From Spongiibacter tropicus DSM 19543 (GTDB taxonomy: Bacteria > Pseudomonadota > Gammaproteobacteria > Pseudomonadales > Spongiibacteraceae), in the NCBI RefSeq assembly GCF_000420325.1, contig NZ_ATUS01000001.1, forward strand, positions 124,001 to 188,000: DNA of 64,000 nt, in the 5' to 3' direction. Under the pieces are notes generated by a model. It ran no database searches and was not told the DNA's origin. It saw only the letters and a program-made list of their open reading frames with translations. Positions within the stretch are counted from its first letter, which is position 1. Every line of letters begins with the position of its first letter. A program made the position numbers and the translations under genes. Shown here one piece after another: positions 2,868 to 35,493 of the stretch.

Positions 2868-5015
2868 TTATTTAAAGAAAGATTCGCCTTTGGCCGCCAT
2901 CTCGCGCAGGCTGTCAGTAACCTGATACAGCTTGCCAAGGTCGGCGTAGCGATCTGCCATTTCCACGAAGGCTTTCACGCCCATCTGATCGATGTAGCGC
3001 ATTGCACCGCCGCGGAATACCGGGAAACCAATACCCATAATGAGCCCCATATCGGCGTCTGCCGCACTGCCGACAATGCTCTCATCCAGGCAGCGAACCG
3101 TTTCGATGCACATTGGAATCATCATGCGAGCCAGGATGTCGTCGTCGCTCAGCTCAACACTGTTCATCTTGGCCTCAGCGGCCATTGACAGCGCAGTTTC
3201 GTCCTCAGTCTTCTTAGGCTTACCGCGCTTATCTTCCTCGTACTTGTAGAAGCCGATGCCGTTCTTCTGACCGTAGCGGTTCGCTTCAAACATCATCTGC
3301 GAAATACCTTTAAAAGGATGACGCATACGATCCGGGAAGCCTTCTGCCATCACTTCTGCGGCGTGGAAACCGGTGTCGATGCCGACCACGTCCATCAGAT
3401 AAGCCGGCCCCATAGGCATACCGAAGCGCTCCATCACTTTATCTACGTGACGGAAGTCGGCGCCATCGCGCACCAGCATGTCGAAGCCCGCGAAGTACGG
3501 GAACAGCACGCGGTTGACAAAAAATCCGGGGCAGTCGTTTACAACGATCGGCGTCTTACCCATTTGCAGGGCGTACTTAACTGTGCGCGCAACGGTTGTT
3601 TCGCTGGTCTTTTCTCCGCGGATAACCTCAACCAGCGGCATGGCATGTACCGGGTTAAAGAAGTGCATACCGCAGAAGTTTTCCGGACGCTCCAGTGCTT
3701 CGGCCAGATAGGTAATGGAGATCGTTGAGGTGTTCGACGCCAGTACCGCGTCCTCGCGGATGTGTTTCTCCGTTTCGGCCAACACAGCGTGCTTGACCTT
3801 TGGGTTCTCAACCACAGCCTCTACGATAACATCGGCTTTATCAAAACCGTCGTAGCTCAGCGTCGGACGAATGCTGCTCAGCACTGCCGCCATTTTGTCC
3901 GGGGTCATACGACCGCGGGCAACACGCTTGGACAACAGTTTGCCAGCCTCTTTCATGCCCAGCTCAAGACCCGCTTCAGCAATATCTTTCATCAGAATAG
4001 GCGTGCCTTTATAGGCAGACTGGTAGGCAATACCGCCGCCCATAATCCCGGCACCCAACACGGCGCCCTGTTTAACATCGCCACCCTGCTTGGCAATAGT
4101 TCTGGCAGTTTTGCTGACGCCCTGCTCGTTCAGGAACAGACCCACCAACGCATCAGCCTGGGGCGTGCGGGCCAGTTTGATGAAATGCTCTATTTCCACT
4201 TCAATCGCTTCATCGCGGCTTAGCGTGGCGTTGCGCTCCATAGACTTAACGGCTGTCACAGGTGCAGGCATATTTTTACCCGCTTGCTGTGCCACCATCG
4301 CTTTACCGGTAGTAAAGGCCATCATGCGCTCAATATCGTTCAGCTTAACAGGCGACATTTTTTCTTCGCGACGTGCCTGATAATCAAACTCGCCTGCCAG
4401 GGTTTTCTTCAGCAGGTCTACAGATGCATCTTTTAGCAGTTCAGGAGCCACTACGGCGTCGACGCCGCCGTCTTTCAATGCAGCGTCTGGCTTTTGCTGG
4501 TTACCGGTGGCCACCCAAAGGTTGGCATTGTCGCAACCGATGACACGAGGCAGGCGCACAGTGCCGCCGAAACCGGGGTTAATGCCCAGTTTGACCTCAG
4601 GAAGTCCCACGACAGCCGCAGACGACATCACGCGGAAATCACAAGCCAGACACATTTCATAACCACCGCCCAGCGCAACGCCATTGATGGCAGCAACAGT
4701 CGGTACAGGCAGGTCTTCAAAAGCGTTAAAAATGGCATTGGCTTGTTCCAACCAACCGCGCAGCTCGGCGTCTGGCAGCGTGAACAGCTCAGTGAATTCA
4801 GTGATATCGGCGCCCACAATAAAAACCGGCTTGCCGCTGGTAACGACCACCCCTTTCAAGCCTGACTCACTGGCCAAAGCCTGAGTAGCTTCGCCGAGTT
4901 CTTCCAAAGTCAGCCGGTTAAATTTGTTGACGGAGTCGCCCTGAAGGTCGAAGCAGAGCTCCGCGATGCCATCTTCCAGAAAGCTTGCGCTTAACGCCTT
5001 GCCTTGATAAATCAT
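2868..5015 (-). CDS. fadB: Fatty acid oxidation complex alpha subunit FadB
   Basis: A multifunctional enzyme: enoyl-CoA hydratase/isomerase in the N-terminal half ([19 protein letters not shown], about 110-128) and L-3-hydroxyacyl-CoA dehydrogenase in the C-terminal half (Rossmann motif [14 protein letters not shown] at about 320). The protein of about 715 residues matches the family. The start is placed at the ATG at 5015 because GAGGG lies just upstream and MIYQGKAL is the conserved beginning; a longer frame to 5063 adds 16 atypical residues. It is the first gene of the fadBA operon and has a palindrome in its upstream region. Confidence 0.97.
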
Positions 5016-5077
5016 TGTTTTCCCTCTAATCGAGTTCTCTAGTCGAGATGTTGGCGGCGGCATTTGCCTAAAGCAAC

Positions 5078-5096
5078 ATGTTTACCATGTAAACAT
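5078..5096. promoter_or_regulatory. Palindromic operator candidate upstream of fadBA
   Basis: The perfect inverted repeat ATGTTTAC-CAT-GTAAACAT lies 62 bp upstream of the fadB start. Beta-oxidation operons are commonly repressed by FadR, PsrA or other TetR-type regulators that sense acyl-CoA. The sequence is not the E. coli FadR consensus, so the regulator cannot be named from sequence alone. Confidence 0.5.
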
Positions 5097-5158
5097 CCGG
5101 GTGCAAAACTACCCGAAAGCGATAGGCAAGGCAAGCCGCCGTGTTAAACCCCATTGCC

Positions 5159-6217
5159 CTACTCGGTGAGGCAATCGGGATCGAAGCGATACTCTTCCCT
5201 GAGCCACCCGGCCAACTCAGCCGCCGCAGGGTGATCGATACCATCACAACGCAAAGCCAGTACGGATTTCAAGTCTGTGGGCATCCCATCCAAGCCTTGA
5301 CGCTGAAAGACATCAGCATATTCCACCAGCACCTCAGCAAGCTCAGCGGGTAAGGTCATCAGGGCGGACTTAAACGCCGCATCAGGACTGAGGCCCTGTT
5401 CATAGCCCGCAGGCAAACCCTGCAATGAGAGAAAGGATAGATGATAGGCGTTCATTGGGTTAACAAAATGCCCGCTACAGGCCTCTTTCAACCAGGGCTG
5501 TCGCCCACGGAACGGCAGGACATTTAAAAACCGGCTACTCTTGCGACCGTCATTCACCGGGTAATTATCCCAAAGCAGCGGCTTGCGCCCCAGCAATTCA
5601 CTCGCGCGGTGCATATCTTCGCGGCGATACTCGGTTGAAATGACCTGGGGCCCAGTCCACAGCAAATCGACCTCAGCGCCCAAGCCGCTGGCTAATTGCT
5701 CGAAATAGCCTTCAGGGCAGCGGCCAAACAGGGTTTCCAGAATAGGATCGTCGCTGTAATAGCTGGGGCACATGGCCAGCCTAACCTCCGGCAGTGCGTC
5801 CCTTACAACGGCCATGACTGCCAGTTGACGCGCTGCGAGCTGGGGAACTCCCGCAGGCAGATCATCAAATAGAATCCAAAGTATGGCCGGTTTCAGGGAT
5901 TGAATTTGCTTTAGCTTACGTCGAAGATCACGCTGATCCTGATCACCGAATTCGCTCTGCAAACCCGCTGGCGACAGCCCCACCCCCCAGTCGATACCAG
6001 CCTGAATGGAAGCCTCTGAGAGGGACCGCAACCTTGCCGAATGCTCTTTGGAAAAGTCGTCACGCCAGCGACTGCGCAAACTACCATCCCCTTTAGGGGC
6101 ATAGATATAGGCGTTGTACCCCCAGTCTCGCAACAGCCGGGGAAGTTCCCGACGCTGCTCCCAGCGCCACTGGCGACCGTAAAAACCCTCAATGACGCCC
6201 AGCGGCCACCGTTTCAT
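5159..6217 (-). CDS. GH84-type beta-N-acetylglucosaminidase (NAGidase domain)
   Basis: The N-terminus reads GVIEGFYGRQW, the hallmark of GH84 O-GlcNAcase/hyaluronidase-like enzymes, followed by YNAYIYAPKGD. The paired acidic residues FDDLPAG at about 119-124 fit the catalytic Asp-Asp of substrate-assisted hydrolysis. The 352 residues correspond to a stand-alone catalytic domain with no signal peptide or binding modules, so the enzyme is predicted to be cytoplasmic. It lies 3 nt after gcvT on the same strand. The natural substrate in bacteria of this type is unknown. Confidence 0.85.
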   Translation of the reverse strand: MKRWPLGVIEGFYGRQWRWEQRRELPRLLRDWGYNAYIYAPKGDGSLRSRWRDDFSKEHSARLRSLSEASIQAGIDWGVGLSPAGLQSEFGDQDQRDLRRKLKQIQSLKPAILWILFDDLPAGVPQLAARQLAVMAVVRDALPEVRLAMCPSYYSDDPILETLFGRCPEGYFEQLASGLGAEVDLLWTGPQVISTEYRREDMHRASELLGRKPLLWDNYPVNDGRKSSRFLNVLPFRGRQPWLKEACSGHFVNPMNAYHLSFLSLQGLPAGYEQGLSPDAAFKSALMTLPAELAEVLVEYADVFQRQGLDGMPTDLKSVLALRCDGIDHPAAAELAGWLREEYRFDPDCLTE

Positions 6218-23642: not shown

Positions 23643-24821
23643 TTATTCTTCCTGCCCAGTAAACCCCAACTTGGCGTTGGCCAGTTGCGAGAAGTTGATC
23701 GGCTGGTCTTCCTGAATGAATTTGCCGTAGTGCTTCCGGATCATGGCTTCTGACGTGTGGCCCACCTGCGCAATAATCCAGTTGATGGGCATGCCCACCG
23801 TTAGCATCTGGCTGATGAAGGTGTGGCGGCACTGGCTTGGCCCCCGGTAGCGAACCCCAGCCGCCTCCAGGTGATTGGTCCACCAATATTCCCGGTAACT
23901 CTTAATGTGGATGAACGGCTCGCCGGTACCGGTGCTTACCCATACCGGCCGGAATTTCACTTTGCGGATAGTGCGGTTATCCCGGTCGGTCATCTCAACC
24001 GTGATCGGCTCCAGGTCGCCGGTGATCGCTTTCTGTCGTCGCAACGCGTCAACAGCCGGCTTCAACAGTTCCACCGTGCGCTTTGAACGCCGCGTCTTGG
24101 TCGCCTTGTACTGCCCTTCAACCACGCCCATTTCATACCGGGCAATACCGGCGTCGAGGTCGATATAATCCCAGCTCATCGCAATCAGCTCTGCGGTGCG
24201 CGGGCCGGACCACAGCCAAAACTCCGTCATGTTGCGCTCAGATTCACGCTCAGTGGGCGTATTGAGAATCAGGTTAATTTCCCGGCGCGTGAACACATCC
24301 GGATCTTCCGAGTCAGGCAACGCCACCCGGATCGGCTTTGTGGGATTGTAGTGAACGCGGTGGCGGGTGCCGTAAAGGTCAAACACCTGAGACATTATCT
24401 GCAGAATCTCCTTGATGCTTTTGCTGGCAAGCGAGTCAAGGGACGCACTGATCCATTTCTCTATGTCGATGGTGTCGATATCCTCCACCAGCCGGTGGCC
24501 CCACTGGGGGCGAATATAGCCTCTTCCCCAGCGCTGGTAATTCTCCAGCGTCAGTGCCGCCACCTTGCGGGCTTTGATCTCATAGAAAATATCCAGGTAG
24601 TGCCCGAAAGTGTTTTGCTTCAACCGCGGCGAATTGGGAAATCGGCTGGCATAGTCAAAAATGCCCTGCCGAATCTCATGCTTAATGGTGGCCACCAGGC
24701 CCTCAGCATACGCCTTGTTTTGATCCGTGGGCGGCAGGTTCAATGGCTCCCGGCATTTATCCCCCTTGTAGTAAAAATAAACCCGCAGCATCCCACCGTG
24801 GACTTCCCAACCCTTCGCCAT
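23643..24821 (-). CDS. int: Phage tyrosine integrase (arm-binding DUF3596 type)
   Basis: 392 residues. The N-terminal part (about 1-60) resembles the DUF3596 arm-binding domain, and a SAM-like core-binding domain covers about 70-155. The catalytic residues are Arg208 (SGPRTAELI), Arg332-His333 (QCRHTFIS), His355 (QVGHTSEAM) and the nucleophile Tyr365 (RKHYGKF). The first His of the usual HxxR box is replaced (SQCR), as is common in this subfamily. It is transcribed toward attL, the typical orientation. Confidence 0.95.
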   Translation of the reverse strand: MAKGWEVHGGMLRVYFYYKGDKCREPLNLPPTDQNKAYAEGLVATIKHEIRQGIFDYASRFPNSPRLKQNTFGHYLDIFYEIKARKVAALTLENYQRWGRGYIRPQWGHRLVEDIDTIDIEKWISASLDSLASKSIKEILQIMSQVFDLYGTRHRVHYNPTKPIRVALPDSEDPDVFTRREINLILNTPTERESERNMTEFWLWSGPRTAELIAMSWDYIDLDAGIARYEMGVVEGQYKATKTRRSKRTVELLKPAVDALRRQKAITGDLEPITVEMTDRDNRTIRKVKFRPVWVSTGTGEPFIHIKSYREYWWTNHLEAAGVRYRGPSQCRHTFISQMLTVGMPINWIIAQVGHTSEAMIRKHYGKFIQEDQPINFSQLANAKLGFTGQEE

Positions 24822-25313: not shown

Positions 25314-25550
25314 TTAGCAAAGTCTTTCTCTGAAATGCGGGAGTCTGACCTTTGCCCCCTCTTGAGCGCTTAAAGCCCTCACCGCCGTTATCTGACAAAC
25401 CCACTGGAAATAGCACCGTGGGCTATTACAAACCAACGACACCTCGGTATTGCAGCGCGTCTGCTTTTTAAAGCGGGTGATAACCGCCGGTGAGGTGCAC
25501 TGTGGGCAAGTGAACACATCCCGATTGATGCTGATATTGGCCTTGCTCAT
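25314..25550 (-). CDS. ogr: Ogr/Delta-type zinc-finger late transcription activator
   Basis: 78 residues from ATG 25550. The zinc module FTCPQC ... LVCNSPRC (C-x2-C, C-x4-C) is the Ogr/Delta signature. In P2 this protein binds boxes upstream of late promoters and contacts the RNA polymerase alpha subunit. The start overlaps the previous stop (ATGA), so it is coupled to the BRO-like gene. A longer frame to 25631 is available but overlaps that gene. Confidence 0.85.
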   Translation of the reverse strand: MSKANISINRDVFTCPQCTSPAVITRFKKQTRCNTEVSLVCNSPRCYFQWVCQITAVRALSAQEGAKVRLPHFRERLC

Positions 25551-26089
25551 GGCAGCACCTCCAGCACCATCTGCTGAGGTTCTTTGCCCAGCAACGGCAG
25601 CTCTGGCATTGGCCAGGCAGCCAGGCGGCAATAGTGCTGCAGGGTAATCCAGGTCTGCTTGTACACCATCGCATCCCGGCAGACAGCCAGTTTATCGGTC
25701 AGCCGCTCAATCTCCCGGATGTAGCCATTCCTCTCCTTGTCGCTGATGTTAACTGGCCCGGCGAAATGCCACACAAACTCGGCCACCGCCACCTTCATCG
25801 CCTGGGCTTTTGGCTGACCGGACTCCATCACCAACAGCAAAAACCCAATGGGGTGATACACCTTGGTGTCGTAATTTTTGCCGTCAGTTGACATCAACTT
25901 GATGTCAACTGAGTAATGATTGATGTGCAAATTTCGGTCTAAGATATTGTTGATGCACCTGCGCGGCTCGGCATATTCCAGCCACTCACCGATCGCGGTT
26001 TTGGTGGCATGAGGAATGCCATCGATAAATACGGCCTGAGTCAGTTCGATCTGGCCCCAGTGAAAGGGCATGGGGGTATGTTGAGTCAT
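25547..26089 (-). CDS. BRO-N/antirepressor-like phage regulator
   Basis: 180 residues from ATG 26089. The segment AKTAIGEWLEYAEPRRCINNI resembles a BRO-N/antirepressor DNA-binding domain. A hairpin SVDIKLMST-DGKNYDTK then precedes YHPIGFLLLVMES, comparable in layout to the P22_AR_N genes at 27779 and 34930. The hairpin is encoded by a perfect 29-bp DNA palindrome (25884-25912). The C-terminal part has no recognised domain. The start overlaps the previous stop at 26089 and its own stop overlaps ogr, so these three genes form a coupled operon. The function is inferred from fold resemblance and operon. Confidence 0.65.
   Translation of the reverse strand: MTQHTPMPFHWGQIELTQAVFIDGIPHATKTAIGEWLEYAEPRRCINNILDRNLHINHYSVDIKLMSTDGKNYDTKVYHPIGFLLLVMESGQPKAQAMKVAVAEFVWHFAGPVNISDKERNGYIREIERLTDKLAVCRDAMVYKQTWITLQHYCRLAAWPMPELPLLGKEPQQMVLEVLP
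25884..25912. repeat. Coding palindrome, 13-bp arms
   Basis: The arm TCAGTTGACATCA, a 3-bp spacer and the exact reverse complement of the arm. It is in frame inside the BRO-like gene and follows the same pattern (AGTT-G-N3-TCA, spacer, mirror) as the array at 26468-26677. Confidence 0.9.
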
Positions 26090-26748
26090 TATGCCGCCTC
26101 CCCTACTACCGCGCTTTGCTGGGTTTTGGCTTCCCAGCGCCACACATTCATTTGCACCCGGTGCAGGTTGGTGAGCATGGCCTTTTTGTCCAGCTCGCCC
26201 TCCGGCATGAGGTCGGCCTGGCGGCCCAGGCACCACAGCAGCGCTTTCAGTTGCTTGCTCAGGTAACAGTAAGGCGTCAGTTGCAGAACGGCGCGCACCT
26301 CGTCGATATGGTGGGCCATCACATTGGGAAGATCGCTGTTGTCGATCAGGCGCTCATTGACCGAGTCAATAGCGCTGTCCAGGGCTACATGCAGGTAGAG
26401 AAAAGCCGATGCCAAACAGCTTACGCTCAGGCCGGGAATGGAAAGTAAGGATGGTTCGCGCTCAGTCGATACCAAACTGGTATCAGTTGGGGTCAATTTG
26501 ACCCCAACTGAATCCTCGGTGAGGTCAGTCGCAGAAGGTTCAACCGATATCAGATTGATATCGACTGAATGGTCAACCGCCGTCAAATTGACGGCAGTTG
26601 ACCTCAGGCTGAGGTCAACTGAAGCGGGTTCAAGCGGAGTCAGATTGACTTCAGTTGACGTCAGATTGACGGCAACTGAGCCTTGCTCGCGGACAGTATC
26701 CAGGTGATCTGCGTTGAATCCGGACGGATTTTGGGTAGGGTTTTTCAT
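26089..26748 (-). CDS. Palindrome-repeat protein, unknown phage regulator
   Basis: 219 residues from ATG 26748, which has GAGG 8 nt upstream. Residues about 22-100 are made of 8-residue repeats such as SVAVNLTS, TEVNLTPL, SVDLSLRS, TAVNLTAV, SVDINLIS and SVGVKLTP, each encoded by a DNA palindrome. The remaining 120 residues are helical, with no family I know. The open frame runs on upstream through the C4-like RNA and there reads like annotated ash-family proteins (AKSAAGIGVP, RAQWRS). I treat that part as a shadow of the RNA. It is the first gene of the C4-controlled operon, where P1 has icd before ant. Confidence 0.7.
   Translation of the reverse strand: MKNPTQNPSGFNADHLDTVREQGSVAVNLTSTEVNLTPLEPASVDLSLRSTAVNLTAVDHSVDINLISVEPSATDLTEDSVGVKLTPTDTSLVSTEREPSLLSIPGLSVSCLASAFLYLHVALDSAIDSVNERLIDNSDLPNVMAHHIDEVRAVLQLTPYCYLSKQLKALLWCLGRQADLMPEGELDKKAMLTNLHRVQMNVWRWEAKTQQSAVVGEAA
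26468..26677. repeat. Array of seven to eight in-frame palindromes
   Basis: Cores are at 26468, 26489, 26546, 26579, 26600, 26636 and 26657, with a decayed copy near 26513. Arms include GATACCA, GGGGTCA, GATATCA, GCCGTCA and GACCTCA, each followed by a 3-nt spacer and its exact complement. Two copies have one mismatch. Three copies extend outward with AGTT/AACT, to 25 bp or more. All offsets (21, 57, 33, 21, 36 and 21 bp) are multiples of three. Confidence 0.93.
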
Positions 26749-26820
26749 GGCAGTAGCCTCTTGCTGAGTCAGAGAACCGCCACCATTAACGCCAATTAAT
26801 AGGGTGGCGGGCGTCACAGG

Positions 26821-26841
26821 GTTGGCGTTACCGGGCAAGAG
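26821..26841 (-). promoter_or_regulatory. Putative target of the C4-like antisense RNA
   Basis: In the leader of the palindrome-protein mRNA, CTCTTGC (complement of 26835-26841) and ACGCCAA (complement of 26822-26828) are separated by 6 nt. Both can pair with segments GCAAGAG and TTGGCGT of the upstream small RNA. The order is correct for antiparallel pairing of the two segments. Confidence 0.6.
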
Positions 26842-26893
26842 AACCGGCGCGACCGAAGTCGCCCCCATGACACCCGCCATAAACTGCGGGCAC

Positions 26894-26979
26894 AAAAAAA
26901 GCGCTTCGGATGAGCGCCATTGCGCTCTTGCTCGAATCGGGACGCCAATCCCGGCTGCGGATTTTGCCGCAACGGGGAT
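26894..26979 (-). ncRNA. C4-type antisense RNA (P1/P7 C4, P4 CI class)
   Basis: The leader begins at about 26973-26979 after a good promoter. It folds into TGCGG/CCGCA, then CGGGA/TCCCG with TTGGCG in its loop, then GAGCGC/GCGCTC. The last competes with a GCGCT/AGCGC hairpin followed by seven Us (26900-26894), an intrinsic terminator. C4 RNAs repress antirepressor operons by pairing with the downstream mRNA, and complements of two segments occur at 26821-26841. The downstream operon carries an antirepressor-like gene, as in P1. The class assignment is from structure and context. Confidence 0.72.
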
Positions 26980-27009
26980 AGTGTATGGATAATTATTTAG
27001 AATTGTCAA
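26980..27009 (-). promoter_or_regulatory. Leftward promoter of the C4/palindrome operon
   Basis: -35 TTGACA (27009-27004), 18-bp spacer, -10 TACACT (26985-26980), read leftward. It is the mirror of the toxin-antitoxin promoter, which uses the same two hexamers. Confidence 0.65.
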
Positions 27010-27066: not shown

Positions 27067-27363
27067 ATGTACACAATAAAGCGCCTGGATGAATTCGACG
27101 ACTGGCTTAACGGCCTGAAAGACAGTACAACTCGACTGCGTTTGTCTCGTCGCTTGGAAAAAGCCTCTAGGGGCTTGTTGGGTGACACCAGCTCCGTGGG
27201 CGACGGCGTTTTTGAAATGCGCGAGTTCTTTGGCCCCGGTTGGCGAATGTACTTTGTAGAGCGCGGCGAAACACTGATTGTAATGCTCGGCGGTGGAGAT
27301 AAATCGAGCCAACAGGCCGATATCGACGCCGCTAAAAAACTGGCTGAACAGCTGGAGGATTGA
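27067..27363 (+). CDS. HigB/RelE-type toxin (phage Gp49-like)
   Basis: 98 residues with MREFFGPGWRMYFVERGETLIVMLGGGDKSSQQADI, the core of the addiction-module killer protein family related to HigB. Members are ribosome-dependent or RNA-cleaving toxins. It lies 3 nt before the antitoxin gene, in toxin-first order as in higBA. Transcribed opposite to the flanking phage operons, it probably stabilises the prophage. Confidence 0.88.
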   Translation: MYTIKRLDEFDDWLNGLKDSTTRLRLSRRLEKASRGLLGDTSSVGDGVFEMREFFGPGWRMYFVERGETLIVMLGGGDKSSQQADIDAAKKLAEQLED

Positions 27364-27366
27364 ACC

Positions 27367-27702
27367 ATGAATGACAAAATTAAAGTAAGCGACCTGGCTG
27401 AATTTGATATGGCCGAACAGCTTCGCAGCGAAGAGGATATTGCAGAATACCTTTCGATGGTTCTGGAAGACGGGGATACCAACGAGCTGATCCGAGCTGT
27501 CGGCTATGTTGCCAAAGCTCGTGGAATGACTCAGATCGCCCAGGCCAGCGGCCTCGGACGTGAAAGTTTGTATAAAGCATTGCGAGTCGGCGCTAAACCA
27601 CAATTTGAAACCATCAGTAAGGTATTGGGGGCGATGGGCGTTGGCCTTAAAGTCGTTGCCACACCTATAGCAAAGCAGGACAACCACGCTGTAGCGCATT
27701 GA
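27367..27702 (+). CDS. HigA-type antitoxin (XRE family)
   Basis: 111 residues. The N-terminal part (about 1-35, DLAEFDMAEQLRSEEDIAEYL) is the toxin-binding addiction-antidote motif. The helix-turn-helix is MTQIAQASGLGRESLYKALRVGAKPQFETI (about 66-95). It is predicted to neutralise the preceding toxin and repress the pair through the palindrome at 27042-27057. Confidence 0.88.
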   Translation: MNDKIKVSDLAEFDMAEQLRSEEDIAEYLSMVLEDGDTNELIRAVGYVAKARGMTQIAQASGLGRESLYKALRVGAKPQFETISKVLGAMGVGLKVVATPIAKQDNHAVAH

Positions 27703-27778: not shown

Positions 27779-28327
27779 CTACTCCCCGAACCCGAGCTGG
27801 GTTACCACAGGAATATCCAGGCCATAGGCCGCGTTGGCTTTCTCAATAGCGACCTGCCTGAGCTTGGGATTTTTAATACCATCGATTTTGGCGAGCACGT
27901 TAACAATGCTGGAACCATTTCCGGCTTTTACGGCGATGCCCTGAGTTTCATAGGCATGGAGCGCGCCGTCCCATTCCTCATGTTTAGATTTAAGCCACTC
28001 TGCAGATTCCAGATTGCCCTGAGCATTGATATTTCGGGGACTTAATGTGTTCAAAAACGAAGTGACACGGTCTAATCGGATAAGATATTGCTCTCTTTCA
28101 ACAGGTTTCTCGTCCATTTGGGGGTACCGGGGTACCCCCAAAGTCATCCCAAACCGCTCGGTCAGATATGAGTCGTTAAGCAATTTTGTCTTTTGCCTTT
28201 TCCACTGGATACCGATCTGATCGCATATCGGTTTAAGGGGCACTCGGTCATGCCCATCTTCGCATTTCACCACCGGCAATATTGCATCGCCGAAGCCGAT
28301 TGAAATATGGATACGTTCGTTTTTCAT
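27779..28327 (-). CDS. P22_AR_N-type phage antirepressor-like protein
   Basis: 182 residues. The N-terminal 120 match the antirepressor N-domain layout: VPLKPICDQIGIQWKRQKTKL, then SYLTERFGMTLG, then YLIRLDRVTSFLNTLSP, then the LNLQ-type EWLKSKHEEWDGAL helix. The C-terminal tail is short. A perfect GC-rich DNA palindrome (28117-28142) encodes the loop before YLIRL, the same domain position as in the other two antirepressor-like genes. It is the last gene of the early leftward operon. It probably inactivates a repressor, but the target is unknown. Confidence 0.8.
   Translation of the reverse strand: MKNERIHISIGFGDAILPVVKCEDGHDRVPLKPICDQIGIQWKRQKTKLLNDSYLTERFGMTLGVPRYPQMDEKPVEREQYLIRLDRVTSFLNTLSPRNINAQGNLESAEWLKSKHEEWDGALHAYETQGIAVKAGNGSSIVNVLAKIDGIKNPKLRQVAIEKANAAYGLDIPVVTQLGFGE
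28117..28142. repeat. Coding palindrome with 12-bp arms
   Basis: TTTGGGGGTACC, a 2-bp spacer and the exact complement. In frame, it encodes LGVPRYPQ inside the antirepressor-like gene. Confidence 0.92.
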
Positions 28328-28674: not shown

Positions 28675-28899
28675 TTAAATGGCGGAGAGGTGCTTGCGCC
28701 GGTCAGTCATGGTGTCAGGTGCTTGTTTCTGGGCCTGTTTGCGCTGGTAAATCTCCTCACGGTCCACGCCCACATCCTTTTCAGCAACAATGCCAAGCCG
28801 CACCTGGTTGCCCTTCACGCCCAGCACAGTCACTTCGACCAGCTTGCCGTTGTCGTCGCAGATCAGGGTCTCGCCTATCCGTCGGGTTAAGATCAACAT
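28675..28899 (-). CDS. csrA: Phage-encoded CsrA/RsmA RNA-binding regulator
   Basis: 74 residues starting [14 protein letters not shown], with [29 protein letters not shown], the full CsrA core including the Arg of VRLGI that contacts GGA RNA motifs. The tail is longer than in E. coli CsrA (61 residues). It lies within the replication operon. A phage copy could compete with host CsrA/RsmA or control phage mRNAs; which of these applies cannot be read from sequence. Confidence 0.92.
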
Positions 28900-29069: not shown

Positions 29070-29292
29070 GGGTGGCACCTGCCGGCAGGTGCGGACGTTT
29101 GGCAAAGCCGGTGCGGTCATAGATAGCTTTCCATTCGCTGAGCGGCTTGGCAGCGCGCACAATCAGCTTGTTAGACTCATCTTCACGGTGCACTTGCAGC
29201 AACACATCCAATAGCGCTATGGCCAGTGCATTGCCACCGGCTACCAGCTCCTCATAGCTGGCCATGCCGGGGTCTTCGGTAAATTCGCTCAC
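29059..29292 (-). CDS. Small phage early protein, unknown
   Basis: 77 residues, acidic N-terminus, SYEELVAGGNALAIALLDVLLQ helix, basic C-terminal half. ATG overlaps the primase stop by 4 bp, so it is translationally coupled. No family recognised. Confidence 0.6.
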   Translation of the reverse strand: MSEFTEDPGMASYEELVAGGNALAIALLDVLLQVHREDESNKLIVRAAKPLSEWKAIYDRTGFAKRPHLPAGATHDR

Positions 29293-31949
29293 GCGGGTCT
29301 CTCCTTGTTTTCAAATATCCAGCAGCGCACCGACTTCCCCTCGGTGCCGTTCAGGTGAATGGCAGAATTAACCACCTTGGTATCGAGGTATTTGTGACGG
29401 CGGCTGCCTTTAAGCAGGCGCTTCAGATCGGTCATGGGCGGCACCTGCTGGCGGTGCTCCACGGCGCGCTCCACAAAGTGGTTCAGGTTGATGGCGATTC
29501 GATCTTTATTTTTGCTGTGGTTGAGCTTGGGATCGTTGTCGCCACCATTCAAAAATTCGTATTGCTCCCAAAATTCCTGCACTACCGGATGATCAGCACT
29601 AATCGCCTTCTGGCGCTCCACGGCCATATTCAGCAGCTCCCGCTGGGTCGCCTTCACCTGCTCTTTGCTGAGGGGCAACACCAGCGCCAAGGCACTTACC
29701 AGGGCACACAGTTGCCCGTGGTTCTTCGCAATCCGCACGTTCTTAATGCCGGGCTGGGCCATCAGGCGCTGCTCAAATTCGGGGGTTTTTTCGGAAATCA
29801 GAGCCATAATCTCGGCCTCTTTTTTTACCGACTCGAGCACAAAGCTGCTCACATGCTCCAAGGGCATGTGCTCCAGCTCATGGGCCATCCGCTTGCTGTC
29901 GTCGTTGTGCGCAGCGCGGGTAAAGCGCAGGTGCACAATCCGCTGCAGCACCGCCTCACTGGCCTGTACAGCAGCGTTCTGGCTGATGGCAACCGCGCCA
30001 CGAAACGGCGGCTCATAGGTCTCGTTGCCACTGTTCTTCATGCCTCGGCTGCGCACCGACCGCCCGTTGTAAGCCGTTTTCAGCTCGTCCCAGTCAAACT
30101 TTTTGCCGTGGGCGGTATCTTCGTCGCGGTCGCCCTCAATCAGCACCACCGGCATATTGGACACCTGCCCCATATTCCGCGCACGGGCGGCTGCCGTAGA
30201 CTTGCTGGGGTCAAAACCTTCGTAATCGCGCCGACCAAAGGTCTTCCACAAAAACTCAATGAGGGTGGTTTTACCCGCGCCGGGCTCGCCGATGATTTCG
30301 CAAAAGGGATAGCTTTTTTGGGTATCGCGGATCTGCTCGGCAAATAAAGCACCAAACCAGAAGGCCAGCGCCACCAGGCCCTTTTCGCCAAAACACACAT
30401 GAATGTGGTGCACCCAGTCGGTGCGGTAGTTGTCGGCGTTTTTCGCAATCGCCAGGTGCACGGATTGGTTCAGGCTCTTGATCGCCAGTTTGCCCGCGTC
30501 GAAATAGTCCTCATCGTTGATGCCGATCAGGCGACCATCTTTGACCGCCACATCGTTGTAAACGTAAATGCCAAACTCTTTGCTGTAGCCCAAAAAGTCG
30601 ATGGTATTGACGGTCTTAATATTGAAAAGCTGGTCCTTGGCAATCGTGTCCAGCTGCTGACTGGTGCCGGTAAACACACTGCCCGCCGCGACCGATAGCA
30701 GGCGCTTTTTAAACTCACTGGCACTGGAAAGCTGCCCCCCGGTAAAGGTGTTTTTAACGGCTGGCCCACCGTGGGGAAAGGTAATACGGGCGTAATACCA
30801 GCTCTCATCGGTGATGGTATTGGCCTGAAAATACAAAAACTGGAAATGGCAATTGGCGATCTCGCAAATCGTGTTGCTCAGCTCCAGCGCCTTGTCGCGC
30901 ATTTCCCGCTCAGTCATCCCTTCGTCGGCATCGCTCAGGCTGTTATAGGCCTTGTTGAACTTGTCCAGGTTGAGCGCAAACCAGTACACCCGGCTGCGAA
31001 ACTCAAAATTGAACTCCTGCCGCTGGTGGTGGTTGTACATCAGCAGGGCTTTTTCGCTGGCACTGGCGGCAATCAGTAGGCTGCCGTGGTAGCGATACCG
31101 CGCCATATCCTTCTCGGTAAGGCGGGCCTGCATGTGCAGGTCGTTCCAGTCGTCTTTGCCCTTGCTGTTTTGGGGAATGGTCACGGCGGTAGACCGCTCG
31201 TTGGTTTCAGCCAGGCGAGTATGGTGGCGCAGGGTCCACTTACGCCCTGCCGCGTCGCCATCCAGCGCCCACACCCAGCGCACGTCTTTATGCTTGTGCT
31301 CGTCAAAAAACGCCGAGGGGAAATTGGTGCAACCTAATATGGCGCAGGCTTTGTAACCGTTCAGGTAAAGGGCGATCGCATCCAGAATACCCTCAACAAT
31401 AAACACCTCGTTGCCGTGGGCGATTTCCTGCCCCGGGGGGAACCAGGCCAAGCCCTTATAATCGCCCTTGAATGAGGCCTTGCGCTTCTTCTTCTCGCCG
31501 TTGTCGTTAACCCACAGCTCTTCAACGAAGCGGTCAAAGTAGATGCCATCGGCAATCATAAAGCGCACCGTGGCCGTGCCCGACTGCTTGCCGATCACGT
31601 TGGGGCTCCACCATCGGTCCTGCTCATACCAGCCCGCAATGCGGGTAATATCAAATCCCCTCGCCTGCATTAAGTACGCGTCGGCGGTGGCTCGGGGGTT
31701 ATCGTCCGTGGGCTGGTAGCGCTCGTTGAATTTCTCAAACGCATCGGGGTACAGCTCTTTAATGTGCCCTGACCAGGCGCAGTTATTTTCCCGGCCGCAG
31801 CGAATCACCCAAGGGCTTTCCGCTTTGGTGTACAGCTCCTTCTTGCCGCAGCTGGGGCAAACACCGGAGCGCAGCCAGCCGCTGCGCTCCTTGAACTGAT
31901 AATCCCGCAGCAGGCGCTGGGTGATATCGTTATGTACCGCTGGGATCAT
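29289..31949 (-). CDS. Phage primase-helicase (zinc finger, TOPRIM, P-loop)
   Basis: 886 residues. A CHC2-like zinc module at the N-terminus (CPSCGKKELY ... CGRENNCAWSG) is followed by a TOPRIM domain with FIVEGILDAIALYLNGY (about 180-196) and ALDGDAAGR (about 230). A C-terminal superfamily 3/DUF927-like helicase has Walker A GEPGAGKTT (about 553) and Walker B-like VVLIEGDRDEDTA. It is comparable in design to P4 alpha and related satellite or phage replication proteins. It should prime and unwind phage DNA; P2 itself uses the unrelated rolling-circle protein A, so this phage likely replicates differently. Confidence 0.9.
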   Translation of the reverse strand: MIPAVHNDITQRLLRDYQFKERSGWLRSGVCPSCGKKELYTKAESPWVIRCGRENNCAWSGHIKELYPDAFEKFNERYQPTDDNPRATADAYLMQARGFDITRIAGWYEQDRWWSPNVIGKQSGTATVRFMIADGIYFDRFVEELWVNDNGEKKKRKASFKGDYKGLAWFPPGQEIAHGNEVFIVEGILDAIALYLNGYKACAILGCTNFPSAFFDEHKHKDVRWVWALDGDAAGRKWTLRHHTRLAETNERSTAVTIPQNSKGKDDWNDLHMQARLTEKDMARYRYHGSLLIAASASEKALLMYNHHQRQEFNFEFRSRVYWFALNLDKFNKAYNSLSDADEGMTEREMRDKALELSNTICEIANCHFQFLYFQANTITDESWYYARITFPHGGPAVKNTFTGGQLSSASEFKKRLLSVAAGSVFTGTSQQLDTIAKDQLFNIKTVNTIDFLGYSKEFGIYVYNDVAVKDGRLIGINDEDYFDAGKLAIKSLNQSVHLAIAKNADNYRTDWVHHIHVCFGEKGLVALAFWFGALFAEQIRDTQKSYPFCEIIGEPGAGKTTLIEFLWKTFGRRDYEGFDPSKSTAAARARNMGQVSNMPVVLIEGDRDEDTAHGKKFDWDELKTAYNGRSVRSRGMKNSGNETYEPPFRGAVAISQNAAVQASEAVLQRIVHLRFTRAAHNDDSKRMAHELEHMPLEHVSSFVLESVKKEAEIMALISEKTPEFEQRLMAQPGIKNVRIAKNHGQLCALVSALALVLPLSKEQVKATQRELLNMAVERQKAISADHPVVQEFWEQYEFLNGGDNDPKLNHSKNKDRIAINLNHFVERAVEHRQQVPPMTDLKRLLKGSRRHKYLDTKVVNSAIHLNGTEGKSVRCWIFENKERPA

Positions 31950-34929: not shown

Positions 34930-35493
34930 CTATTGGAAAAGTGGCATGTCGTCATCGACGGCCGCGCCCATTTCATTGAGATGTTCATGAATCAGCTTGG
35001 AGATGGATTTCTTCTCCGCTGGGTCAGTGGTGGCCTTGCGGGAACGAATCAGCTTGTCGAGCTGGGTAACGGCTTCGCCTTTGCCGCGTTTATGTGCGAC
35101 ACCATAGGTTTCATAGTTGTGGATGGCTTCTGCCCATTCCTCTTGGAGATTAAGAAGCTTTTGCGCCGCCTCTTCTTTACCCCGAGCCTTGATCCGATTC
35201 GTTTGGATTCGAGCCAAAAACATTCGAGATCGGCTCAATTGGAGATAAATGCTTTCTTTGGGGGGGGTAATAGATCCCCCCTCAGCCGATAAAACGGGGT
35301 CTACAAGTCGCTTAGTGCCATAAAGAATGGCGTTATCAGGCTCAAATACAGTGCGTTTTGCACCTCGCCAGTCAATTTCCGCAAGGTCTACTAGCGGCTT
35401 GAAGGGGATGTATTGCACCCCTTCGTGCTCCACTACGATCATGGTGACCCCGTGGAAGTTGATCAGACTTACTACTTTGGTTGCGTTACTCAT
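34930..35493 (-). CDS. P22_AR_N-type antirepressor-like protein 2
   Basis: 187 residues from ATG 35493, overlapping the HTH gene stop by 8 bp. The N-domain has VEHEGVQYIPFKPLVDLAEIDWRGAKR, then YLQLSRSRMFLARIQTNRI, then LLNLQEEWAEAIHNYETYG, the same layout as the protein at 27779. The loop before YLQL is encoded by a G-run/C-run near-palindrome (35260-35281, GAGGGGGGATC ... CCCCCC), a weaker form of the pattern seen in its relatives. Likely an antirepressor; the target is unknown. Confidence 0.78.
   Translation of the reverse strand: MSNATKVVSLINFHGVTMIVVEHEGVQYIPFKPLVDLAEIDWRGAKRTVFEPDNAILYGTKRLVDPVLSAEGGSITPPKESIYLQLSRSRMFLARIQTNRIKARGKEEAAQKLLNLQEEWAEAIHNYETYGVAHKRGKGEAVTQLDKLIRSRKATTDPAEKKSISKLIHEHLNEMGAAVDDDMPLFQ

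Follow-up and report, generated by a model that had tools for sequence, protein, structure and literature searches.

This locus raises the question of why a short reading frame in a prophage operon should carry a series of palindromes whose three core bases vary from unit to unit and yet match between the two arms of each unit. The prophage lies in the 64-kb stretch of DNA that was analysed (the window), adjoins a tRNA-Ser gene and rne, the latter named by eye, and has its integrase at 23643-24821 and its primase at 29289-31949. The minus strand carries an isrK/C4 region (26800-26986), followed by a leader ORF of 219 codons (26089..26748), which contains the array and has no Pfam or PHROG match, and then by a Bro-N gene (25547..26089) encoding a predicted winged-helix regulator or antirepressor of 180 aa. 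The stop codon of the leader ORF overlaps the Bro-N start (TAATG). At the operon head we identified the C4 antisense RNA (26800..26884, minus strand; Rfam RF01695, 80.4 bits, E 5.4e-15) and the isrK / C4 a1-b1 target region (26894..26986, minus strand; RF01394 and RF03163; 58.6 bits for isrK and 51.2 bits for c4-a1b1), each above its gathering score. A C4 RNA with its target, a leader ORF and an antirepressor-like gene on one strand make up a C4/isrK-controlled antirepressor operon, and the earlier note on this DNA was right to place the array in a C4 operon. The layout resembles that of isrK-orf45-anrP of Gifsy-1, which likewise has an isrK RNA, a leader ORF and an antirepressor-like gene, and in which translation of the leader is coupled to that of the antirepressor-like gene (PMC4825925). 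That operon differs in being controlled by RNA structure, and no palindromic array is described in the parts of the paper cited here.

An identical copy of the locus is present in Spongiibacter marinus DSM 17750 (L090). In viral contigs, relatives of the 219-aa array protein were confined to 100%-identical copies in two contigs; among 293 genomes it was found in its own genome and in G063 (identical), with one weak 33% match besides, and no diverged homologue turned up in either set. Elsewhere in the window, two adjoining small ORFs on the plus strand (27067-27363 and 27367-27702) resemble, by eye, a toxin-antitoxin pair in which a RelE/HigB-like gene precedes one for a helix-turn-helix antitoxin, and the prophage encodes a CsrA-like regulator on the minus strand (28675-28899; Pfam E 6.5e-18). 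Besides the Bro-N gene, there are two P22_AR_N-type matches on the minus strand, at 27779-28327 and 35101-35463 (genome C1:152022-152297 and 159101-159463; 36.8 and 36.7 bits, cut-off 30.7).

The array comprises seven 29-bp palindromes between 26462 and 26679, with 13-bp arms, a 3-bp spacer and broadly the form TCARYYGNNNYCA-NNN-TGRNNNCRRYTGA. The first unit (26462..26490) has mismatches at 4 of 13 arm positions, and the second (26483..26511), 21 bp from it, is perfect. The third (26540..26568) has two mismatches out of 13, the fourth (26573..26601) one, and the fifth (26594..26622), 21 bp from the fourth, also one; the sixth (26630..26658) has three and the seventh (26651..26679), 21 bp from the sixth, one. 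At this 21-bp offset, the two units of each pair (26462/26483, 26573/26594 and 26630/26651) have 8 bp in common. A further, decayed unit (26511..26539), in which one half-site can still be recognised, was seen by eye and missed by the pattern scan. The scan itself, with up to 3 mismatches allowed, returned 8 matches over the 64 kb of the window, whereas 0.12 were expected and the largest shuffle gave 2. The seven palindromes and the decayed copy that the earlier note had described were thus found again, and its statement that the inner 7-bp arms are perfect in five of the seven units and have one mismatch in the other two was correct. It had missed, however, an eighth unit (25884..25912), and over the longer arms of 13 bp no more than two of the eight are perfect.

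The eighth palindrome is perfect over its 13-bp arms and lies in the Bro-N gene itself, over residues 60-69 (first wing strand and turn). This self-site would account for the seven array units. At the variable core positions, the two arms of a unit agreed in 22 of 24 comparisons over the eight units, compared with 55 of 168 between units (P = 2.8e-9). The offsets from unit to unit (21, 57, 33, 21, 36 and 21) are all multiples of three, as previously pointed out, but little meaning attaches to this: in seven of the eight units the motif brings a TGA stop into both other sense frames, and in the remaining unit into one of them, so that an array inside a reading frame has little choice but in-frame spacing. 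Across the genome as a whole, the seven matches with 0-1 mismatch all fell within this prophage, and the four outside it with 2-3 mismatches were comparable to the number for a reversed control pattern (5). The units are therefore not copies scattered genome-wide, as dispersed palindromic repeats (RPE or REP-like) are. A search of Rfam at the array gave nothing above threshold, and only sub-threshold microRNA matches.

The window Bro-N protein scored below the cut-off of the Pfam Bro-N family (PF02498; E 0.0025, 18.8 bits, cut-off 25.6), whereas the other Bro-N genes studied, with the exceptions given below, and the ORF6N (PF10543) antirepressor genes match their families. With an HMM built for this analysis, the E value of the window protein was 4.6e-23. 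Ten of its relatives were compared with PF02498; six passed (L029 with 42.2 and L033 with 46.2 bits among them), one was below and three had no match at 0.001. The AlphaFold2 model (mean pLDDT 87.6) has a helix at 42-52, a short helix at 54-59, strands at 60-66 and 72-78, and then helices. The codons of residues 40-53 (25931..25972, minus strand) encode the putative recognition helix, whose residues track the arm bases. The top fold matches in VIA-align were DNA-binding folds, namely DdrC (Z 8.8), Ski-like (6.9) and Dachshund (6.7), with Mbp1 at 3.6; the Z values are modest and sequence identity is 8-11%. Foldseek gave nothing at E < 0.001 (best E 0.12), and sequence searches with two Bro-N profiles turned up no related structure among those solved.

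We next asked how widely the palindrome occurs in Bro-N genes. A palindrome-based scan of viral contigs gave 24 stretches: in 14 the match was in a Bro-N gene or the stretch was a copy of the window prophage, in three (L030, L036, L039) it lay outside the Bro-N gene with Bro-N elsewhere in the stretch, and in seven it lay elsewhere. As a set found in this way is biased by the search, we gathered homologues by protein. This gave 176 non-redundant domains (protein similarity plus our own HMM), of which 11 had been found via the palindrome pattern and were left out of the following count. Among the remaining 165 genes, 108 had a palindrome of at least 10/12 (spacer 1 or 3) at the equivalent place of the domain, with reading phases 0, 1 and 2 in 59, 45 and 4 genes, respectively. 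Under a fixed procedure, 102 of the 176 Bro-N domains passed, compared with 15 of 400 control frames from the same loci (open frames of at least 200 codons, gene status unchecked). The excess over synonymous shuffles was confined to about one tenth of the domain (the 0.5-0.6 bins). Over the palindrome, the encoded peptide is SxxxKLxxxDG in the S-type, KGTxxxSTLGG in the K-type and VTNCHxLK in a chromosomal type, and matched arms were also present in the latter two, where they are read in other frames.

Sixteen named phages were picked by hand for spread from 89 listed matches, and with spacers of 1, 3, 5 or 7 allowed 11 of them reached 10/12 or more: N15 gp30, SPN3UB, APSE-1, CarolAnn, G4, Javan9, pCD1602_4, Ma-LMM01, Faith5x5, Stills and Lactococcus 53801. 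Gladiator, TL-2011b, phiMR25, P1201 and FP_Brigit did not. Against 100 synonymous shuffles, seven of the 16 were clear at ≤3 and nine did not stand out. From these counts, we concluded that the Bro-N palindrome is common and not universal. Sites outside the Bro-N gene were few in other loci and partly of another class (L121, L231, L240); the one in L121 lies just before the Bro-N start, and those of L121 and L240 are mismatched in class with their own Bro-N. In L039 (minus strand, 4755-5715), external units lie upstream of the Bro-N frame, which seems to shift frame at its own palindrome; two of these units are offset by 21 bp. APSE-1 has a second S-type-like palindrome (11/12; L294:1607-1633) in the neighbouring regulator gene P42, perhaps another Bro-N.

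Sister families were surveyed as well. ORF6N genes showed the palindrome more strongly than Bro-N genes, in 21 of 29 from genomes and in 36 of 47 with viral loci added. These sets comprised 29 of 30 genome loci (L311 was dropped for a stop) and 18 of 21 viral loci (L405, L409 and L413 were taken as duplicates). The frame shifts between ORF6N subtypes, and the core, TCACAAATTGTGA or near it, is read as SQFATS or VTNCD depending on frame. The palindrome was also found in 5 of 11 P22_AR_N genes (from 13 loci; L366 and L370 are pieces) and 3 of 29 Rha genes (from 30; L358 is partial), and in none of 22 KilA-N genes (from 30; L392, L393, L394 and L397 are partial, and L395 and L398-L400 score the same as L373). 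The five KilA-N matches with identical scores (L373, L395, L398-L400) are all on the G329 chromosome and perhaps belong to a multicopy element. One ORF6N match (L404:1501-1779) contains one stop codon, yet has a 12/12 palindrome. In the ORF6N model (mean pLDDT 79.3, with the palindrome region poorly predicted) the coding segment forms a helix and loop; hence, placement over a wing strand applies to Bro-N only.

Do the two arms change together between homologues? The earlier note had held that independently varying arms would reduce the pattern to an accident of codon use, and we ran this test on the Bro-N gene. In S-type genes found by protein (79 rows, counted in full although the protein motif had anchored some of them wrongly), pairs 4 to 12 were above permutation; for pair 7 the count only equalled, and for pair 6 it exceeded by one, the maximum of 500 permutations. 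Pair 9, which joins two third codon positions, was paired in 47 of 69 rows against 18.9 expected (maximum of 500 permutations, 32), as CG in 20, GC in 12, AT in 10 and TA in 5. Covariation of the arms was thereby borne out.

The arm bases also follow the protein. Over 10,011 gene pairs (from 151 of the 176 Bro-N rows, those at 9/12 or better), arm similarity was predicted by residues 41-56 and 72-79 (standardised 0.43 and 0.41), and the other parts of Bro-N (N-terminal strands, residues 25-40, C-terminal helices) added at most 0.10. The effect of single columns was largest at 47, 73, 40, 91, 52, 53, 44 and 51, and little at 46 and 48. Residues 40, 44, 47 and 51 would lie on one helix face, which column 91 does not fit. 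When only half-sites with both arms agreeing at the base were counted, Asp44 went with G at half-site position 4 in 24 of 25 and Asn44 with T4 in 19 of 19 K-type cases. In a binary tree test (tree from the remaining columns), 11 of 12 changes at residue 44 and base 4 were shared, compared with 2.5 expected. Residue 44 was the best predictor of position 4 in unseen clusters (0.86; residue 41 next with 0.70; median 0.46), a lead that shrank to 0.73 vs 0.70 with coarser clusters. In one arm, the position-4 base is a synonymous third codon position. For the S-type, Arg43 was accompanied by G7 in 20 of 20 cases, vs 6 of 12 without Arg43 (13/13 vs 5/11 when pattern-found rows were excluded). The window protein has Arg43, and G7 is present in all 16 half-sites of its eight palindromes. 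In S-type genes residue 73 predicted position 9 at 0.97, which could reflect a contact between the wing strands.

Not all measures singled out these residues. A multi-state tree test (parsimony) was negative, with no clear signal and no preference for residue 44; the tree tests for S-type Arg43 (P 0.11) and Arg40 (P 0.16) were not significant, and neither was S-type Asn47-G4 (P 0.25). Arg40-G8 outside K-type genes was seen in two rows only. By APC-corrected mutual information, 44-position 4 ranked twelfth, below pairs with residues 89, 55 and 57, which are not expected at DNA, and 43-position 7 was outside the top 20. Residue 48 also scored in the tree test; together with the effect of column 91, this indicates a contribution from linkage or subfamily structure. 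Whole-segment linkage by recombination and subfamily structure may add to the correlations. For the Arg43 class, we considered the rule that any residue 47 other than Asn entails T and dropped it, because L424 (residue by eye) is an exception.

The conserved place, the arm covariation, the lack of a consistent G.U preference (below) and the statistical linkage of arm bases to the recognition helix all point to a protein-DNA site. With a probability of about 75%, judged from sequence comparisons, the palindrome is the predicted double-stranded DNA site of the Bro-N winged-helix dimer, situated in its own gene, and the array consists of seven sites of the same class. Of the explanations offered in the earlier note, DNA sites for a phage protein is thus the one supported, with the adjacent Bro-N gene as the probable source of that protein. 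We infer both this binding and its effect on the operon. A Bro-N homodimer would bind the palindrome in the gene segment coding for its own wing; as both half-sites would be read by identical subunits, the arms would change together as specificity evolves. The leader ORF of this C4/isrK-type operon would supply seven further operators, with three pairs 21 bp, or two helical turns, apart. Such overlapping pairs, present in the window and in L039, suit a protein bound on one helix face. Dimers bound in the transcribed region would repress the operon, most likely as a roadblock to elongation, and the outcome would be negative autoregulation that does not depend on the promoter and moves along with the gene; the array probably provides extra operators for it.

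The closest precedent is C.Kpn2I, the controller protein of the Kpn2I restriction-modification system, which has a site in its own reading frame and, when bound, acts as an elongation roadblock that stalls RNA polymerase; its authors considered this suited to horizontal transfer (PMC6237814). The shared feature is a regulator's site within its own ORF, which for Bro-N is putative. C.Kpn2I belongs to another protein family, however, and its motif is at or just before the gene start; in the portions of that paper cited here, no tie to the DNA-binding segment, no superfamily-wide covarying palindrome and no residue-base code is reported (PMC6237814). By analogy, it is a precedent for where the site lies and, probably, for how it acts.

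Two rival explanations keep the palindrome functional and change what is recognised. The protein might read an extruded hairpin or cruciform DNA, for which the sequence of the arms is free as long as they are self-complementary. This accounts for the within-unit core pairing, seen in one array (22/24), and agrees with the lack of a consistent wobble preference. We consider it quite unlikely, since C and A at positions 2 and 1 are fixed, as is G7 in 16 of 16 window half-sites, bases are linked to helix residues, and overlapping pairs at 21 bp suit linear double-stranded DNA. Alternatively, as the earlier note had proposed, the palindromes might fold as hairpins in the mRNA and control translation, decay or termination in the antirepressor operon. 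The RNA-based C4/isrK control of this operon, the near-perfect arms with short loops and the L121 external copy that ends 16 nt before the start codon would all fit. An RNA stem, however, should clearly favour G.U among its departures from Watson-Crick pairing, and this was not observed: mismatches in Bro-N palindromes were A.C in 67 and G.T in 24 cases (50 and 26 in a first count), and those in ORF6N leaned slightly the other way (8 and 11) without strong preference. In the absence of a consistent G.T preference, a sense-RNA hairpin becomes very unlikely, the more so as overlapping units cannot all fold simultaneously and the arm bases track recognition-helix residues.

The other two rivals need no site at all. 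Template switching at quasi-palindromes is a known process, and if it corrected the arms without any function, core bases free of constraint would stay symmetric within units. We regard this as highly improbable by itself: the single fixed place in Bro-N and in ORF6N, the varied reading frames and the link to the recognition helix would be unexplained, and there was no enrichment in control frames or elsewhere in the same domains. The template-switch repair suggested in the earlier note may nevertheless help to equalise the arms. Finally, conserved wing residues might by accident have complementary codons. Part of the pairing is indeed set by the amino acids, because the Bro-N synonymous shuffles exceeded background in the same bin (5.85 vs about 5). 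This last explanation is hardly credible as a whole, as third-position pairs covary across all four Watson-Crick types, synonymous covariation by itself contradicts it, and the ORF6N core is read as either of two peptides by frame.

The preferred reading, a DNA site of the Bro-N dimer, leaves one feature to be accounted for. Core positions 4-6 are symmetric inside each array unit though the units differ, which is more than a single protein that contacts the core loosely would demand. Either template switching has acted where the protein is indifferent, or units were taken from the self-sites of other alleles. The ATA core is carried by the Bro-N gene of L424; a viral scan for this core gave 8 stretches, two of them copies of the window prophage, and of the other six L424 alone is a Bro-N gene. 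The cores CCG, AAG and GGG were seen as self-sites or in one arm (L022, L023, L028, L033, L089, L091), and for the ACC core (unit 26594) no self-site was present among the Arg43 rows compared. Several array units thus share a core with Bro-N self-sites of other phages (L022/L023, L028/L033, L037, L424). A bolder and rather doubtful reading of these sequence matches is that Bro-N/ORF6N genes are self-recognising, the wing-coding DNA being the protein's site, and that the array is a set of operators fitting sister alleles as well as its own, by which rival antirepressors would be sensed or silenced. Lock and key would then be one sequence, moving together between phages.

DNA binding by Bro proteins has been proposed, according to a staphylococcal paper (PMC5944126). 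In the open-access literature searched, we found no description of a Bro-N DNA target and, by title and abstract, none of a palindrome conserved within genes of the Bro-N or ORF6N kind; subscription papers are mostly outside this literature, and novelty is unproven. The PLE iterons (PMC8263062), judged from the part of that work cited, proved irrelevant. Bro-N is very common in phages, with 1053 of 50,697 phage records matching one Bro-N query. Should the palindrome prove to be the target, each of these genes would state its own binding site, and many natural protein-site pairs would be available from which a recognition code could be read. Antirepressor networks would become predictable from sequence, and operator and regulator would evolve as one overlapping segment.
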